Part shown: positions 21,714 through 63,100 of the stretch, piece by piece
How positions within the stretch are numbered: the stretch's first letter is position 1
Layout: each line of letters starts with the position of its first letter
Assembly (NCBI RefSeq): GCF_000341285.1
Contig: NW_005178443.1
Location: 96,260-160,259, forward strand
Direction of reading: 5' to 3'
DNA from: Galdieria sulphuraria
Lineage: Eukaryota; Rhodophyta; Bangiophyceae; Galdieriales; Galdieriaceae
Length of the DNA stretch: 64,000 nt
Notes under the pieces: model-generated
The model's input: only the letters and a program-made list of their open reading frames with translations
Told to the model about the DNA's origin: nothing
Databases searched by the model: none
Translations under genes and position numbers: made by a program

Positions 21714-22012
21714 ATTTCTGTATCTAATAGAGGAAGAACAGAAACATGATAGGATATGACGTAGTTGAAAGTATTTTGAACAATAAGAAACTTTGGTTAA
21801 AAAATGTTGGTTACTTGAAAACAGCGTTTGCATTGGCTTACAGAATAATTATTTTGGTTGAAACTGATTTTGAGTTGCCCTTTCCATTATAAAAGATTGA
21901 GAGCAGTTGTTATGATGGAATGAAATTGTTTTGTTATATCAATAGCTATCTATCATATGATATGCAAATCGGATTGAATTTCAACATGTTTTGATTGTCG
22001 TTTAAATTTAAA

Positions 22013-23682
22013 ATGACTTTCACAAGGATTGAAAATAATCTCAAAAAGTACTTTGGATACGAAAACTTTCGTCCTTTACAGCAAGAAGTTATCACCTCTG
22101 TACTAGAGGGTAAGGATGTGTTCTTTTTGGCTCCTACAGGAGGTGGGAAATCTCTTTGTTTCCAACTTCCAGCTTTGCTATTGGAGGGAAAAGTGTCTTT
22201 TGTCATCAGCCCTTTAGTGGCTTTGATAGAAGACCAAGTGAATAAACTAACAGCCTTAAATATAAGAGCCTATAGTATACTGAGTTGCCAAGGAAAGAAA
22301 CACAAGGAAAGGATTTTCTCCCTATTGGAACAAAGTCACAAGGAGAGATTACCTTCTTTGATATACCTGACGCCTGAGTGTGTTTCGACAAACAGATTCC
22401 AGAAATTGTTAAAGTCTTTGTATAGAAACAAAGAGATTGGATTGTTTGCAGTAGATGAAGCACATTGTATTAGTTGCTGGGGTCATGACTTTCGACCAAA
22501 ATATCGAAGACTGGAGATATTGAAGCAGTTATGTTGTGATATACCTATCTTGGCACTTACTGCAACAGCCACAAAAATGGTAGTGGATGATATCATTACT
22601 TGTCTTGGAATGAAGCAATGTATTCAATTTCGACAAAGTTTCAATAGACCTAATATTTTCTACCAAGTAATTCATGAGGTATTTAAACGACTGGCGAATT
22701 CGTTTTCAGAAATGCTCAATTGTATTTTATGATATCTGCTTATGTCACTAAACCTTAGAGCCAATTGTCAATGAATGTCATGGATGATTTGAAATGCTTT
22801 GTATCCTCTTTTGGAAATTCTAGTGGAATAATATATGCAAGGCAAAGAGAAGTGACAGAATACTTGTGTCAAAAACTCATTGCATCAGGTATAAAGGCAG
22901 GTGTTTATCATGCTGGAAAAAAGGCTTGTGAAAAGCAAAAGACTTTAAAGGATTGGCTTTCTAACGACCTCTCTGTCATCTGCTGTACGGTTGCTTTTGG
23001 AATGGGCATTGATAAACCAGATGTTCGATTCGTTATCCATTTCAATCTCCCAAAGAGTTTGGAAAACTTTTATCAAGAAAGTGGAAGAGCTGGAAGAGAT
23101 GGGTTTCCAAGTTGCAGTCGTTTGTATTACTCCTCATCCGACTTTTTCAGTTTGCAAGAAATGTCGAGAGGTAAAGAGTATATGCCATCCACCTACTTGG
23201 ATAAATGTAGTAGAGGTATAGAAGCACTATATGAGTTTTGTAATCAACCCATCTGTCGGAGAAAACAACTTGTCAAATATTTCGGAGAAACTTTTTCAGG
23301 CATTTGTGACTCTTGCGATATTTGTTTCTCAAAATTCTGTACGATGTCTCCTAATTCATCAGTAATGAATAACCTTCCGAAAGAGACTGAAGCATCTCTT
23401 GGGGATCCTGTTTCCGATAATCGATTGGCTTCTACCTTTTGTACAGCTTTTCAATTGCTAGCTGAAGAAGGAAGAGCAAAACCGAAATATAGAGAAGACA
23501 ATATAAGAGCCATTGGTATTGTAGACCATGGGAATCATCACGAAACGAACACTTGTCACAAACGTAAAATATCCGATGATTCTATGGTCAGAGATGAAAA
23601 ACAAAGACGCCAAACTAAAATGTCCAAAACCCAAAACATAAATCAGAAAACGTTGCTAAGGTGGTTTTCTGAGACAATGTGA
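22013..23682 (+). CDS. RecQ-family DNA helicase (short, RECQL5-like) with C-terminal PIP-box-like motif
   Basis: Modelled as join(22013..22678,22759..23682), 529 residues. The ATG at 22013 is the first in frame. RecQ motifs are in order: FGYENFRPLQQEVI (motif 0), motif I APTGGGKS with Lys46, DEAHCIS near 150, the WGHDFRPKY that follows, SATA-type LTATAT, and motif VI QESGRAGRDG near 330. A RecQ-Ct zinc-binding region follows (FCNQPICRRKQLVKYFGE then CDSCDIC). There is no winged-helix or HRDC domain I can make out. The tail ends with Q518-KTLLRW-F525, which fits the PCNA-binding pattern QxxLxx-aromatic-aromatic. The 3'-5' helicase should act in replication-linked repair; the PCNA link is an inference. 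Confidence 0.92.
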
Positions 23683-27488: not shown

Positions 27489-30400
27489 ATGTCCCACATT
27501 CAAACGATACAAGAAGAACTTCGAAAACTTGTACACAGAGACCCCAACGACGTTGAACTCTTTTTGGATACTCTTCCCGAGAAGACGCGGAATGAGTTGT
27601 TGAATCATGTGCGTAGTGGTATAGAGAGTCACTTTCAAGAAGATTCTGTGGCAGAAGATCTCGTTTCTATCTTGGAAACAGTAAGAGCTTTGCTACTAAA
27701 TCAATCCTTACGAGTAAGTTGCAGGAAACTTTTACGGAAATCAAGTTGAATGATTAGGAGCAAACGCTTCTAGCTTTGTTAGGACGGATTCTGGTGGAAG
27801 GATGCTCTCCAAAAGAAAGAAACGTACTAATAACAGAGCTAGAACAAGGCTTCCTTTCAGTCTTGAGAGACTCGAAGCTATCAGTTAGTGAAAAATTCCA
27901 GGTATGTGAATTTCCTTATTGGAGCATCATTTCAGAGGCCAACATGTAATAAGGAGATTCAAGGAATATGGTTGCGCATGGAAGCTTTGCTACAGTCTTT
28001 CGATTCTAGCACAAGATGCAGAGTTGTGGACGTTTTTGTGTCCATTAGTAAAAGTGCTGTTCAAATTGATAAATCACGCGGTAAAAAATTCTGCCATGCA
28101 ACGTTTATTCGTGAAACTAAGAAATAACTAGGTAAAATGCTCTCCACGCGGATAGCACGCTGTATGATCGACTATATATTTGATTTAGAAAGTTGCTCTT
28201 TGGTGTTGTCCGTTATCAACGATCTGCATTTGGATCAAGAACTATCCCAAATTTTGAGGCAAGTCTTCAATTGTTAACTATATTGTCAACTCAAATATTC
28301 GAAAAGGCGCAAAACGATTCAATTGATAGATAATCTCGACGCATCGCAATGTCTTCCTTTTATGAAAGGACTGTTTGAAGTCATAAGAAACCGTTTGAAA
28401 GAGACGAATGACAAACTCTTTCCTTGGATAGAAGTTTTTCGAATTTTTATCTACTCTGCACCGTTGTCAGTATTCAGAGATATATTATGTTTGTTAGATA
28501 TTGAAATTAGTAATATTCCCAGCATTGGTATGACTATACAGCGATATTATGAAACCTTTGCTGGTACAGATGACTTTTTAACTGCTTTTCGCATGCAGGA
28601 TCTAGCTTTGTTAGTATTGATTTTCAGTATTCATGAGGATATGAAGAATAATATCACTAGCACGCTGGAGCGCTTGGCAGATTGTCCTGAAAAAATCCAA
28701 GCCTCTGCTGAAAGTTCAACAGAAGATACCTTTTGTGCTTTATTTACAGAGTTGATAAACTTTCAGGACACAGAATACTTACTAATCTACGTTTTAGAAA
28801 TTTGTTACCACTGGATGTCAGACGAGAAATGCCGTAAAACCTCTACAAAACAGAAAGCAACTTCAATCATCGTCAGCATGTTTCAGAAGCAAGCGTGCTC
28901 ACGTGGAGAAATTGTTCATTACATTTTCTTTGAAATGGCTGAGCCAAGTCATAGCATACCCTATCGTCTGCATCTATGTGATATAATTGAACACTTGTTG
29001 CGTACCAACATCATCGATCTTGCATCTTTTGTTCCGAAGATTCAGGATGCACTGCAGTTCTTAGAATCATTGCCAATTGTAGTTTGTAAGAGATTTTTGA
29101 AATCTCTTTGTCGCTTGGCAACTATTTCTCATTCTTTTACCAACTTTTTAATGAAATTTTTGCAACAAAAGGCGTTTGGGCGTTATCTTGGTGGACAGTG
29201 CTTAGGAGCAATCGGTTTTATCGCTGTCCTTTCTGAGAAAAGCTTACAACGGGTTCATTCGAATGCAATCAACATTTTACAAAGCTTAGCTACCAGAAGC
29301 AGTTACGGCATCCGTCTGGTGATATATGAAGGATGGAGACAGCTTGCAATGTTTGAAATGAAATCTCAAGATAGCTTAATTTTACCTATGATGCAGGAAT
29401 TTCTTTTGCATAGACTCGAAGAACTATCCATCGACTGGAAAAATGGGGAATTCTCTTTGAAAGAGTCCTTTGAATTCACTAGTAGTAGTTGTGTTTCGTA
29501 TCCCAAGGAACCGATTGCACACTTATTGCGTTGTCTTTGGACTATAGACTCGAAGCATCCTAGTCTTGGGAAATGCATGGAATGGTTTTGCAACTTATTT
29601 AGATTACTCAATTGCATATTTTCCAAATGTTCTCTGGGCAGTGATGAAGATATCGCGTCTTCTGTATGCCTTGTAAAAGCTTTACATAATGTTGGCGATG
29701 TGCTGTTGCAGTTTTTCGATGATCAGTTTAACCGTGCTAGAGTAATACCATGTCTAACAGTCTTGTATGAATTACAAGATTTTATGCTCTCTCGTTCTTC
29801 TGGAACCTTAGAAATAGATCCCATTGCTTTTGGTGTTTCCGCTTCAAATGTTTTAGTTGAAAAGGAAGTCGTACGAGATATTTCCCTTCTTGAAGAATGT
29901 CATAGCTTTGAAATCCTGTTCAAGTTCGTGTCTTCGAGTTTGGACTATGTCAATGCACTGTACATATTTTTGAGAAAGCTAAGTGGTTATGCCTTAACAG
30001 AAATTAATCAAGAAAACGCCAGTTTCTTGGGAAACCTAGCTTTGCAGTTGGTTAGTTATAGCAACCGACTCGAGTACAGCAAACTTTCTAGAAATGACTT
30101 GAGTGAAATAGAGTGGAAGACTCAGCAGACAGGTATGGAGTGGTGGGAAAACTTTCTTCAGAAATATTCTTCAATTTCTCCACGTCAAATGTGTCTATTT
30201 TACATTTTGACAATTCTAGACACATTATGTTGCAAAGGACATTTTGTATTCCATCGAGACGTTTATCCAGAAACTTTGGATCAGCTTGAAGAATCTTTTA
30301 TGGACGATGAGTTGAAAACAGTTGCACATGAGCACAAAGTGCTTATATCTCTTTGGAATTTTTACGAAACAGAATTTGCAAGAAAGACAGGCATTCCAAT

Positions 30401-31622
30401 CACTCATGCACAATTGCATCTTCAACTTATACTCCACGGACTAAGCCAAGTTCAAACTAGCACCGAGCAAACAAACTATTTTTCAGTTGCTCGAAAAGTG
30501 GTACGCCTCCTCGGTCAATATTCCATGCAACAAACATCGGTCCTTCGACTGTTGATTCGCATACTTATAAAATGCTGCAACAACTCGAAATTTATCTTCT
30601 CCTTACTTCATCATTTGGCGTATACATGTCGAGTCGCAGCTTTGCCTAAGTCATCCGACAACTTTGCAAAAAGACGTATTGACGAAGACACTACGAAATA
30701 TCAGAAAATTATGACGAATTCTGTAGCGAGTTCGGATTACGACCAAATGTCTCCTGGTCTAAGTGAATTACTTCAATCGAGTAAGATTCCTCTACCGGAA
30801 AGTGAATCATGTCGAACAGTAGTTTTGATTGTAGTCTTACAGCATTTGGAAACTCGTTATAACTCGGTACCTACAAAGAAACTTCCTAATCAAGAATCCT
30901 TGGACGAATTGGTAAATATCTTGATGGTCGTCCATACTATCTTAGTTGGTGAAGAAAATTATGAAATGAGAGGTGAACAATTGCCTCATACTCTTCACTA
31001 TCCTCCAAGTTTTGTCAATCGTTTGCTTCAACTTATTTCCAGAATTTCAAAGACTGCTTTTCAGTGGATCAATAGAAATCGCAAGACGATATCCGGTTGG
31101 AAAAAGGATGAAGTTTACATCAAGAGCTTGGCAACATTTGTAGAGAACGTGGCGACTCGTTTGCAAACTATCATCGGATGGATTTGGAAAGGAAGGAGCA
31201 AGTTTCACATTAAAACAACACGTTCGACGACATTACCTCGAATTCAATATCACTTTGCCAAATTACATGTAGAGTGTAGTAAAATTCTACACCTTCTGGA
31301 TATGGAGATGCGTCCACTATTTCAAAAAGTGGTTCAAGATTTTCAAGGATTTCATCAGACAACAGAAGCTGACACCGAGTCTTTGACTTTTGACCAATCA
31401 TTCCAACAAAATGAAAGCAAGCTATCAAGAAAAGTTAATCGACGGAAGTTTAGAAGTCGGAATCGCTTTATCGATGCTTGTTTGGTGGAAGAAGAATCCG
31501 ATGGTGACGACTATGCAGATCTCGAAGATTTTTTGGTTGTAGATAAAGAACTGGAAGGAAATGGCAAACAGCCAGCTCAAGTCATCGACTGGATGAAACG
31601 AATTTTTCCTCAGTATCATTAA
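27489..31622 (+). CDS. FANCI: FANCI, Fanconi anaemia group I protein homologue
   Basis: Modelled as join(27489..27713,27758..27901,27954..28080,28132..28258,28307..31622), 1312 residues against 1328 in human. The protein is all-helical. The best landmarks are DALQFLESLPIVVCKRFLK with the following helix, FGRYLGGQCLGAIGFIAVL, GIRLVIYEGWRQLAMFEM (human VRLMLYEGFYDVL) and EPIAHLLRCL. FANCI pairs with FANCD2 and clamps DNA at interstrand crosslinks after mono-ubiquitination. Exons 1, 2 and 5 are well supported. Exon 3 (27954-28080) is the weakest part of the model: another frame there is also open and hydrophobic. Intron 4 has a GC donor (28259-28306). The gene ends 29 bp from the convergent DPH7 gene. 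Confidence 0.82.
28259..28306 (+). other. GC-AG intron in FANCI
   Basis: The exon ends TTGAG and the intron begins gcaagt and ends aaaag. The join gives SQILRRKTIQLIDNL, continuous with the long last exon. A GT donor two codons later would bring in a stop after a few residues. Confidence 0.8.
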
Positions 31623-57679: not shown

Positions 57680-60190
57680 TTATTCTTTCATTTCTGTGTT
57701 TTCTTCCAGTAACATCGTTGCAATTAGAATTTGTTGAATATATTGTTCTGGTATACCCATCAACTCTAGTGACTTTCTTCGAATCACTTGAGGATTATCT
57801 CCAAATATGCGTAAAAATCTCGAAGCATGACGAGAGGCAAATTCTTCCGGTAATAACGCAGACTTGCAAAGAAACTCTTTCCAGTCAAAATGTGTAATAT
57901 CACTTGATACTTGTTCGCTTCTTGTTATACCTTCTTCCACTTGCATAGCACTTTGAAAACCTTCCATTTGCATCCTATTCTCCTCATTGGTTCTCGGTCT
58001 TATATTTCGAGCCACTCTTAAAGTAACAGTTGATTGCTCAGCTTCCAAAGATGAAACATATTCATTGGACATCGACTCAAAGACAGTTTCACACCATACT
58101 GAAAAGTTTTTAGAAAACTCTCCTCGGTTTGCTTCCCCAATTTTCCTCAACGTTTCGACATTATCTCTTCCCAAATACATTTCAAGGTTCCTTTGAGAAA
58201 CAATTACCAATTGCAGACATGATCGACTACTTTCATTCAAAGTTGATCCCGAAGAATGTTGAGTCACAAAACCACTTGCATCTTCAACAATATTATGTTC
58301 TTCGGTAGAGAAACCTACAGATTGATCATATCTAGTACATACTACCACAAACTGAAAACGAAGTTGAACAGATGAAAAAGATTCGTCATTCAAAACGGAA
58401 ACAACTCCCTTAAAAAATTTTTTGGCTTCTTCCTCAATATTTGTTTTCGAAAATTCAGTTTTGTGATAAAATTTGAATGAAAATCCAACAACATAACGTG
58501 TTTGTCCATTATGGAATACAACATATGCATCAGGACCACTCGAATTGCCCTCCTTTGGAACAAAAATACCACAATGTTGTAAATAATCTCTATAATGACC
58601 AGAAAATGAACGAGAGACATTTCTCAAGATGGGTATATCATTAGATTTTGTAGATTCCATAGAATACGAAACATTGTCCTGTTCAATAAAAGAACCCTGG
58701 AAAATTCCTGGAATAGCAGAATGTACAATAGGCGAGGAATTAGAATGAAGAAAAGTTAATAAGCGAAAACGAAAGATCTTCATAAATACAAATTCAAAGA
58801 AGACTCCTTTTGCTGTTGAAGTGTCGGGAATATAACTAAACGGAGATAAAGGAAAAAGTTCAGTAGCTTCACGGAAAAAGTTATAGTTGCTATGAGCTCG
58901 CAATATAAATTCACAACAACCAATCTTAAACTTAGTGCCCAAATCAATCCCGTCAGTTCCACAATTTTCAGAATAAAACCCAAAAGTTGCAACCAAGTCC
59001 ATCAAATAAGTTCTCGTTCCACATAGAGTAATTGCAAATCCGATTGGGAAAATCGTTCCGAGTTGATAATTCAAAAGGACAAATTGATATCGAAGAAGGG
59101 TTGCGGAATCTAGTATCTCCGGAATAATAAACGTTCCTGACTCATTTAGTATATCTTCAAAGACACCATCTAATAAAAATTCCATATTGTCGTTGTTGAT
59201 AGCAGGTTGCGATAAGTTTGCAACTTTCCCTACTAGGGCTAATAAAGTATTCTTTACAATCAACGGAATACCTCCTGTCTTCTTCTTCAACAATTCTACG
59301 AATCGATACCGTAATTCATCAGAGGGCAATAACCAGTCCTTCAAGGACTTTCCATCATAAATTGCCAGCTCAATATATTCGTTAATATCATGGAGATTAA
59401 AGGGATTCAGCCGCAACATATGGAGACTCACTCTACTGGAGCGAGCATCAGACAGGCGGGCTGAGATTTCAGCAGTCCGACCTGCCAAATAGACAATTAC
59501 CTTCCCTGTAATCAACAAATCACGTAAAATACGGAAGAAATTCCGGAAAGGTACATATTTTGGGTCAGACTCGACGAACTGTTTCGTGGTAAGTTCACTA
59601 TAGTATGTGGTGAGGTAACTCAGGTGACTAAGTTCGTCTATCATCAAAAATAAATATTGTTTCTGAAATTGTTCGAGAAGATACTGGACAAATAAAGAAA
59701 CACTAGGTTGCTTCATCGCTGCGTCCGTGAATTCTACAATTTCTCGGGCACTCATACCATTACACTCGGCTGTAGCCATAGCTATGTTATACATCAAAGC
59801 CTTTCGAAACCTTGGAAAAGGAGCATCAGAAAAGCTCTCTCTTAGTTCTAAGATAACTGACAAAGTGTTTTCCGCAAAGTGTTTCCAAGAAAAAATCTTC
59901 AAATCAACTTTTCCCGATGAGCTCTTGTTGAAAACCTCCGTCTCCGTCTGCTCTTCTTCTTCGTCGGCGAATTTTTTTAAAAACTCTAAAAAATTTTCAC
60001 CAACAAAACTCTTGCCAGCCCCAAAAATATGAGGAGAGAAACAAGCTGAAGGGCGTATGTTAAAGTTTCCCTCAACTGGAGAAAACTGGTGCAAATAAGT
60101 TAGAAGAATAGAGTAAACATCTTCTTTTCTATCTATTAACGGTACTTTTGTCATTCCAGGCAAACTTATGCGTATCTCTTGACTAGCCAT
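57680..60190 (-). CDS. P-loop NTPase with candidate PD-(D/E)XK-like nuclease segment, intronless
   Basis: One uninterrupted frame; the first true ATG is at 60190, giving 836 residues. It opens with IPLIDRKEDVYSILL-like sequence. A P-loop with a non-standard first position (HIFGAGKS, K60) and a Walker B strand YLFLMIDELS (D185, E186) follow. Next is VYLAGRTAEISARLS, resembling the helix after the sensor strand of STAND/AAA ATPases. Further on, KGVFFE (E466), GPDAYVV (D554) and VVGFSFKF (K573) have the order and spacing of a degenerate REase-type active site, with Ser where Glu or Gln is usual. The last 60 residues are helical and SAM-like. The NTPase-plus-REase order recalls Crinkler/RHS-type proteins and the archaeal-ATPase families reported from Galdieria. 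The role is unknown; both readings are inference. Confidence 0.7.
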   Translation of the reverse strand: MASQEIRISLPGMTKVPLIDRKEDVYSILLTYLHQFSPVEGNFNIRPSACFSPHIFGAGKSFVGENFLEFLKKFADEEEEQTETEVFNKSSSGKVDLKIFSWKHFAENTLSVILELRESFSDAPFPRFRKALMYNIAMATAECNGMSAREIVEFTDAAMKQPSVSLFVQYLLEQFQKQYLFLMIDELSHLSYLTTYYSELTTKQFVESDPKYVPFRNFFRILRDLLITGKVIVYLAGRTAEISARLSDARSSRVSLHMLRLNPFNLHDINEYIELAIYDGKSLKDWLLPSDELRYRFVELLKKKTGGIPLIVKNTLLALVGKVANLSQPAINNDNMEFLLDGVFEDILNESGTFIIPEILDSATLLRYQFVLLNYQLGTIFPIGFAITLCGTRTYLMDLVATFGFYSENCGTDGIDLGTKFKIGCCEFILRAHSNYNFFREATELFPLSPFSYIPDTSTAKGVFFEFVFMKIFRFRLLTFLHSNSSPIVHSAIPGIFQGSFIEQDNVSYSMESTKSNDIPILRNVSRSFSGHYRDYLQHCGIFVPKEGNSSGPDAYVVFHNGQTRYVVGFSFKFYHKTEFSKTNIEEEAKKFFKGVVSVLNDESFSSVQLRFQFVVVCTRYDQSVGFSTEEHNIVEDASGFVTQHSSGSTLNESSRSCLQLVIVSQRNLEMYLGRDNVETLRKIGEANRGEFSKNFSVWCETVFESMSNEYVSSLEAEQSTVTLRVARNIRPRTNEENRMQMEGFQSAMQVEEGITRSEQVSSDITHFDWKEFLCKSALLPEEFASRHASRFLRIFGDNPQVIRRKSLELMGIPEQYIQQILIATMLLEENTEMKE

Positions 60191-63100
60191 TTTCCACGCC
60201 GCCAATCCAAAATCAATGAATGAGTGATGATGATAAAAGGGTGATGAAAGCGATGACCTAAAAGCTTTCAAAGGAGCCGAGAACAAAACACTTGGAGGAG
60301 GACAAAGGAGATGGAAGAGAGTGTATGTTTTATTGTTCGAGAGATTGCTTTATTTGGTGATTGGTAAAACTGATCTCTTTGACACTTCTAGACTCACAAT
60401 GACAATAGAGAGAAAGCAGGAATATTTTCTTGCTTGTCATAACTAGAAACTTTCTTTTACTATAGACAAGAAATAGGTTTCTATGAGTTTTTGTGGTGAA
60501 TTAGATTGATGGGTACTATTTCTATGGCTTGTATACTGTAAGAGAGTTTTTCTACTATCTTCCACACCATCTTACACGCAAACTCCTATATACAAGTCTA
60601 ATAAGATACAAGCTTTTTGTAAGTTACAGACGAAATACAGTGGGAAACAGAGAATTGCAATGAATGGGAAGTCTGTTAGTTTGTAACCGTTCGTAGCAGA
60701 GTTTATAAATACAAAAATATCTAATTGAATTTGGAGAAGTGTATTATGTAGACTGTCATACTGACTTATCATTAAATACAAGCCATTATTGATATAATAG
60801 CTACACAAGTTGTCTATCCTTTGTTCGACTTTTAAAAAGTTCTGAATATGTCGTATATAAAAACATCAATAAAGGCTTCAAATATAGTAACTATAACCGT
60901 TCATTTTCCACATATCGATGCTGAAAAAAGAGTAAAAGACTGAGCCAAAAAATTATTTTGCTAAAGAAGAAGCCTTTTATACTTGAGTCAAGGTCGAGTA
61001 GTGTACCAACTTGAAAGCTTCAGCAATTCTCCAACTGAAAGCCACTCCATATTGAAGAACTTTTACCCAACATGACTCTTGACTGAAATACGTTGTAGTT
61101 CCTAAGTTATCTGTCAAGTGATTGTTGTGGAATGACAATACTTCAAGATTGGATATGGTTTCCTTTGACTAATTAGAAACAATTCTGTTCCACTCTCAAA
61201 GTTGTCCTTTGCAATGCAATATAAATAGAACTCCTCTGTAAATAGTAATTTTCTGAAATAGAAAGTTTTTTATCTGACTGTCACATGGATAGATTCATTT
61301 AAGATGCTCTTGTTCTATTAATAGTCAAACGAAATTTTTTATATCGAATATCATCTTTGCAACCGGGTTCCTTTCCCTATCTAAGAGTCGGTGAGTTTTC
61401 AGTCTAATTCACTAAAACAGAGTTTGAATATATAGTGTCGTGAATACTTTTGAGATAGAGTTTGAATTGCAAACCAAAATACTTTTTTTAGTATTTGTTC
61501 TTATCTTTACTATATTTTCTCTTAGTTCCAACAAGTTTCATATTTGTAGAAGCCATTCATATGAATTCCAAGGCTAGAAATGCAGTTTGAAAAAAACACA
61601 TAAAAACGAAAGGAATCTAAACTTTTATCGAATTTCAAGAAACTAAAACTCTTTTTTAGACCGCAGTGCAGGTCCTCAAGTTGGAGCCTCAAGTTTTTGC
61701 TGCCACTTTTTTCGTTTGGTCTAAAACCGAGGAAAACTCTCTTCTATTCATTTAACAAAAGATAGGAAGGACAGTCCAAGTGAAATCTACAAACAACCTT
61801 TTCCGTTTCAGTCTTTGAGATTTATAATACATAGAGTTACTGTTCTTCTTTCAACAGACTAGAAAGACAACGTAGCAGACACTTTAAGAATGTTTTGAGA
61901 TATTCTTTCGGTAACCACTTTACTAAGTATTTGGACAAGAAAGGATATTTTTCATTCTAGTATTCAACATGTATGTATGTATAGTCTATTCATTTTGAAT
62001 CATTGCTACAACTCTGCAATATTGCAAAATTGACACCAAAAATAGCCTTCAAATGAAAACCTTTTAGTTTTGAAACATGTTTAAAGGTATCTCCGAAATA
62101 TTTGAAAGATTGCACTAGTGTATTAACCGAGTCATTCTCCTGCACACAAGTGCATATTCAATATCCAATTTCTGTAAGAGTCAACAACTCCTGTTTCTTT
62201 CTCCTCTGAAAATACTTGCAGACAATACTGATATTTGATACTGTGGATTTTGTTGAGAGAAAACTTATTTTCAAAAAAGTTCAATTCAGTCCAACTGAGT
62301 CTATCCTCTCGATTCTCTTCTCGTTTTTCATCATAGCATTTGAATCATAGTTGAATTCTCTCTTCCATGTCGTCGACTGTATAGTTGAGGTGTTTTTGAA
62401 GGTAAACATGACTGCTTAGGTTTAAAGGCTTTCACTGCCTCCTCTTGAACTTTGTAAAAACCACAAACTGTGAACATATATAAGAAAGCAAACTATAAAT
62501 AGTACAAAGCTGCTTTAGGGCATGGATAACTCCAAGGGAACGCTTATTTCTTCCAGTACGAAGAAAACAAAACTTTTAAAAGCTCTGCAAATTCAAGGAA
62601 AGATTTGTTTAGCTCCACTTGTCTCCTACTCTTTTTCCACTCTCTCATCCATAAGCTCCTTGAATAAGTGAGTCATAATACAAAAAGTTATTCGCGTTAG
62701 ACACTAGGCAGAAGACTCGCGAAATATAAACAGATGGATACACTGGTGGAGGCTTCTTTTTAGATATTGGTAACAAGAATCAAAGACAACTCAAAGTTTT
62801 GTATAAACAAACTGTCTATATATACAAGAAACGTTCATTTCCAATAGAAACAAGTCAAACATAAAGAAGAAAAGATATAGTTTTATAAAAATTGTCACTA
62901 AAAAGAAAGAATAATGTCACTATGAAATAATACAACTAATCAGCAGAATAAAAGCTGAGCACAATTAACATAAATAATATGATGGTGATTATCCAAACCG
63001 GTAAAGGTCTTGTTCTTTTAAATATACTAGATAAATTTCGTCTACTAGTGAAAAGAAAAAAATAAAAACGTAGAAATAATGGAAAAATAAGAATCTTTCA

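Follow-up and report, generated by a model that had tools for sequence, protein, structure and literature searches.

A gene close to the end of a contig of the red alga Galdieria sulphuraria was found to carry a C-terminal SAM domain that has been exchanged among the members of a large subtelomeric gene family. The predicted order of domains in its product is a P-loop nucleoside triphosphatase (NTPase) of the ORC/STAND type, a possible winged helix, a PD-(D/E)XK-like nuclease and the SAM domain. With a little better than even confidence, we read the protein as an NTP-gated nuclease with a SAM module that most likely serves an intracellular conflict system. The window, the whole 64,000-nucleotide stretch that was analysed, covers the right-hand end of a contig of 160,259 bases (NW_005178443.1) in an assembly of 12.05 Mb. 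The gene is an intronless open reading frame of subfamily A with 836 codons plus stop on the minus strand (57680-60190), supported by the reading of the frame, by matches in its own genome and by simulation; from stop to stop the frame measures 889 codons and is open from 60349 when read from the preceding stop. The P-loop, the Walker B motif and the residues E466, D554 and K573 reported in the initial annotation were all recovered at those residues, and the flank that it had called gene-poor contained no frame of at least 150 codons beyond 60349.

Residues 1-335 (59186-60190) were modelled by AlphaFold2 as the NTPase. The Walker A motif (HIFGAGKS, residues 54-61, 60008-60031, with GAGKS at 57-61), the Walker B motif (LFLMIDE, residues 180-186, 59633-59653, with LMIDE at 182-186) and the ASCE fold of an ORC/STAND P-loop NTPase were all present. 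Among the 73 relatives of alignment A3, K60 was Lys in 70 and a gap in 3, and D185 and E186 were each found in 72. The model matched ORC/Cdc6, TnsC, MuB, BrxC, the archaeal ATPase 2qen and the NTPase of Avs4 in Foldseek and VIA comparisons. ORC/Cdc6, TnsC, MuB and 2qen shared about 10-15% identity with this module, and to our knowledge these chains have no fused nuclease or SAM domain. The Pfam model ATPase_2 (PF01637) did not match the window protein, and its best match among the relatives (expectation value (E) 0.0044, 17.3 bits) lay below the cut-off of 33.2 bits. The matches to 2qen and 1w5t ran past the NTPase to residues 435 and 442, respectively, where helices and short strands were modelled, which suggests a possible winged helix at residues 336-435 (58886-59185). 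A short stretch of the NTPase (59684-59782, residues 137-169) varied between copies, with similarity resuming on either side.

The following residues 440-640 (58271-58873) are likely to be a PD-(D/E)XK-like nuclease domain. The initial annotation had suggested this fold, and the full-length AlphaFold2 model showed the expected core topology (alpha-beta-beta-beta-alpha-beta), although fold searches gave weak matches to nucleases. The candidate metal site begins with E466 in the first helix (KGVFFE, 58793-58795), a candidate active-site acid that was Glu in 63 of the 73 relatives, Lys in 9 and Asp in 1. It continues with D554 (GPDAYVV, 58529-58531), a candidate metal ligand conserved in 72 relatives, and K573 (FSFKF, 58472-58474), a candidate catalytic lysine that was Lys in 68 and Thr in 5 and was kept in 19 of the 23 intact copies from the same genome. 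Position 571, the usual site of the (D/E)xK acid, was occupied by Ser (38 rows), Ala (28), Thr (5), Gln (1) or Pro (1). E588 on the next helix (58427-58429), by contrast, was Glu in all 73 relatives and also in both rows of subfamily C, and is a candidate migrated acid. All four residues occurred together in 53 of the 69 rows of a separate residue table, the exceptions being K466 (nine rows), T573 (four), D466, G554 and a missing region (one each), and the pattern recurred in two divergent subfamilies. E466, D554, K573 and E588 resemble the active site of the CCGG-family restriction enzymes (NgoMIV, BsaWI), which likewise have a helix acid, a PD motif, a lysine and a second acid on the next helix; the available part of PMC4652773 gives the variation as PDX21-53KX12-13E, preceded in the chain by another acid. 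Here 18 residues lie between D554 and K573 and 14 (14-16 across rows) between K573 and E588, and the likeness is therefore one of arrangement and not of exact spacing. The CCGG-family enzymes had no sequence match to the domain, and we know of none with a fused NTPase. Two points limit the case for a nuclease: the models behind the fold are weak, and T573 was found in 4 of the 23 intact own-genome copies. The VIA match lists also held other folds beside nucleases (Mre11-Rad50 chains and macro domains), and the absence of a family from these lists does not count against it. Some family members may be inactive or dependent on a partner.

The SAM domain occupies residues 768-836 (57683-57889) and belongs to tail lineage T1 in the tail tree. 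A profile of 15 tails matched the SAM-type domain of SLA1 (3idw) with an E of 6.8e-5, and Pfam SAM_1 matched 5 of these tails (best E 2.4e-5), which upheld the SAM-like tail seen at first in the sequence. The AlphaFold2 predicted local distance difference test score was 85-89 at residues 771-820. The window's own tail gave no Pfam match when searched alone, and a search of the family against PDB sequences returned the SLA1 domain and otherwise chance-level rows. The body and the tail meet at TATGCAAGTGGAAGA, at about residues 748-752 (57933-57947), a junction placed by DNA comparison of subfamilies A and B and by motif counts. The genome held 23 exact matches to this sequence, not all assigned to copies, versus 1 for the reversed pattern; it was present in many copies and had diverged in some, including some with a T1 tail. 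The A and B loci did not align at the DNA level along the body. From about residue 738-748 of A and residue 798 of B, the copies sharing a tail were about 80-99% identical as far as the stop and for up to about 1.6 kb after it, into the 3' flank, whereas similarity between copies of differing tail lineages stopped at the junction.

The SAM tail is an exchangeable cassette that has been swapped among family members since before the species split: the bodies cluster by species, and old tail lineages under purifying selection have been re-joined to them at a fixed junction. The own-genome tails (36 sequences, including L043 and L045, which duplicate L025 and L015 in shortened form) formed six groups at 60% identity, four of which occurred on both A and B bodies. 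Trees were built for the bodies, with FastTree, and for the tails, from an alignment of only 69 columns, using 83 proteins after 25 of 108 had been left out as incomplete. The species changed 5 times on the body tree versus 15 times on the tail tree, and the A/B label changed once versus 11 times. Forcing all A tails together cost 460 log-likelihood units (approximately unbiased test, p-AU 3e-39). Seven tail lineages (T1-T7) were recognised, each found on both body types and in two to four species; support was starred in three and 88-93% bootstrap in the remainder. The ratio of nonsynonymous to synonymous substitution was 0.22-0.39 within tail lineages of the own genome and about 0.55 for whole A genes. 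It reached 1.22 at residues 601-640, which is not read as positive selection because gene conversion disturbs the measure.

Judged by its sequence, the gene belongs to the known Galdieria subtelomeric “archaeal ATPase” family (PMC6629376, PMC9812998), a membership that the initial annotation had considered. The protein search returned 47 relatives, all from Galdieria and up to 97% identical, including named family members, the best of which was 97% identical. About 8,000 candidates were scored in each of three protein searches, which gave no relative outside Galdieria except a few rows without an organism name. A CP12 domain was listed for two G. phlegrea gene models, P0099 (residues 15-64) and P0107, which are perhaps fused models. 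Paralogues, which the initial annotation had proposed to look for, were abundant: 55 stretches of the own genome matched the window protein. This count includes several fragments of a single broken gene and a distant (28%) paralogue. Of the 28 stretches spanning at least 740 residues, 24 had no internal stop. When random substitution was simulated at half the mean pairwise distance (0.159) of the 23 intact copies, a mean of 9.2 stops arose and none of 300 simulated copies stayed open, and the open frames are therefore being kept in the family. Subfamily B was about 26% identical to A and had five long copies in this genome. Subfamily C had 110 matching stretches, the weakest of which were subfamily A places. 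Two subfamily C copies (L031:6097-8140 and L039:3496-4821) kept the E-D-K-E residues, and their nuclease frames ended without a SAM tail. At the opposite end of the window's contig (G000:C33:845-15089), subfamily B and C copies stood in a row, all reading inward.

The position and orientation of the copies were analysed at the 30 best places, of which 21 lay on contigs of 90 kb or more and 9 on shorter ones. On the long contigs, 18 of the 21 copies lay less than 25 kb from the contig end versus 5.9 expected, a count in which the copies are related and hence not independent events. In all 18, the 5' side faced the contig end and the gene read away from it. On the short contigs, where the nearest end is not necessarily a chromosome end, the 3' side was nearer the end in four of nine places. 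No telomere repeat was found at the end of the window's contig, and the repeats around the gene were short, imperfect pairs only. The 5' flank on the chromosome-end side (60191-61690, minus strand) was common to other copies (96.4% identity over 1385 nt to L011 and 95.1% over 1392 nt to L002). This flank was about 91-96% identical between many pairs of copies, exceeding the identity of parts of the coding sequence; beyond it, similarity was lost near the start codon, between about -113 and +47, a region in which the alternative N-termini of the copies differed. The available parts of the earlier accounts report 211 “archaeal STAND ATPases” in one G. sulphuraria strain and, from unpublished reads, such genes beside every telomere (PMC6629376), as well as the subtelomeric duplication of Galdieria archaeal ATPases (PMC9812998). 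The subtelomeric position and copy number of the family are already published there and agree, as do sequence and names, with the present gene, but a nuclease domain, a SAM tail and the exchange of tails do not figure in those parts. New here are the domain order, the migrated-acid likeness, the exchange of the SAM cassette and the open frames reading away from the chromosome end in most long copies.

In the explanation that we favour, the ORC/STAND-like module, with the possible winged helix, would control the nuclease domain by binding NTP or by assembling. The metal site of the nuclease would consist of E466, D554, K573 and E588, the last standing in for the customary (D/E)xK acid. The SAM domain would be an assembly or partner-recognition module that gives specificity. 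The family would form a repertoire near chromosome ends, in which SAM tails are re-joined to bodies at the fixed junction, and it may serve to attack invading DNA or RNA or to tell self from non-self, the tail picking the partner or trigger that activates the nuclease. It is typical of conflict systems to have large, mosaic repertoires in which specificity cassettes are conserved. Both the NTPase and the nuclease matched the phage-defence protein Avs4 in fold comparison, with the order reversed: the nuclease of Avs4 (30-177) precedes its NTPase (209-472), whereas the NTPase comes first here. The antiviral STAND proteins Avs3 and Avs4 carry a large C-terminal sensor, in place of which our protein has the short SAM domain. 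The gene and its conservation, the NTPase and SAM folds, the exchange of tails and the placement and orientation of the copies are computational results; the fold and activity of the nuclease, the migrated acid, gating and the conflict role are what we infer.

The same position and exchange data could be produced by a selfish chromosome-end element, a possibility that we consider unlikely but the strongest of the alternatives. The nuclease, or the break repair that it provoked, would promote the copying of its own gene to other ends; repair from another end would overwrite all that lies towards the telomere, namely 5' flank and body, and would spare the local tail together with its 3' flank. 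The 18 outward-facing copies near contig ends, the similarity that ends at the junction or runs on into the 3' flank according to the tail, the species grouping of bodies but not of tails, and the 23-to-1 count of TATGCAAGTGGAAGA are all as this explanation would have it. However, ordinary subtelomeric recombination through a shared stretch is expected to leave the same marks, the target site and the cutting are a proposal only, copies with T573 have spread too, and the junction motif has diverged in some T1-tail copies. A more specific form, in which a self-propagating element replaces the telomere-side segment up to the in-gene junction, so that one body sweeps the subtelomeres of a species and the old tails act as address or compatibility tags, is held with still less confidence. 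It is quite improbable that the protein is a non-nuclease ATPase of archaeal descent that aids life at high temperature, as the family was originally interpreted, with a central domain that is structural or DNA-binding only. Both the archaeal transfer and the temperature link of the family are disputed (PMC6629376, in its available part). Conservation of E-D-K-E in 53 of 69 rows also speaks against this, and such an ATPase leaves no place for exchangeable tails.

The initial annotation had proposed a protein of the Crinkler/RHS type, and in this only the module order fits. Trypanosome RHS proteins, like the present ones, are a subtelomeric mosaic family. CR proteins also form a large family, for which the available part of PMC5289972 describes the identical order of NTPase, helix-turn-helix and restriction endonuclease, the winged helix and nuclease of our protein being inferred; that part does not mention a SAM tail, which our protein adds. 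In the model the NTPase starts by residue 22, too early for a header to precede it, and neither Pfam Crinkler (PF20147) nor RHSP (PF07999) matched the window protein at E up to 10. Run on the whole genome, both models stayed silent, but they did so in the controls too, and this silence proves nothing. Trypanosome RHS loci are a hot spot for retroelement insertion; RVT_1 had one match in the own genome, but retroelement genes are reported in Galdieria subtelomeres (PMC9812998, available part). The least probable of these alternatives is that the protein is a secreted effector of the Crinkler type or belongs to the CR/RHS family strictly defined. We class the gene with the known Galdieria family and as a likely new variant among NTPase-nuclease proteins, not as a CR protein. 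Among the papers listed in literature searches, none was recognised that connects this family of Galdieria to a nuclease, to Crinkler or to a SAM domain, and the CR survey of Zhang et al. (2016) may already include Galdieria. A viral origin was rejected (no relative in IMG/VR, and viral fold matches to generic AAA ATPases), as were a recent prokaryotic transfer (84,980 species searched by pattern scan and tblastn gave no relative) and a defence label from PADLOC, which was run on seven proteins, left the window protein unmatched and gave one weak REase_II match, in the NTPase of relative P0041 (E 0.0053, residues 61-104).

Elsewhere in the window, a frame of 1114 codons (28278-31622) matched the Pfam model FANCI solenoid 2 below its threshold (E 1.5e-6, 28.9 bits versus 37.8) and is possibly a red algal FANCI. 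A RecQ-type helicase lay in two frames at 21995-23682, with matches to DEAD, Helicase_C and the RecQ zinc-binding domain.

Archaeal transfer and heat adaptation were proposed for the family and then disputed, and the present reading suggests a testable function for proteins known mainly as “archaeal ATPases”. If they are NTP-gated nucleases with exchangeable SAM tails, the family could be tested as a eukaryotic counterpart, in its logic, of STAND-nuclease defence and of the CR/RHS proteins, and this counterpart would belong to a eukaryote that is free-living and photosynthetic. A natural experiment in the exchange of modules at a fixed point at chromosome ends is offered by the tail lineages, which predate the species and sit on bodies grouped by species.
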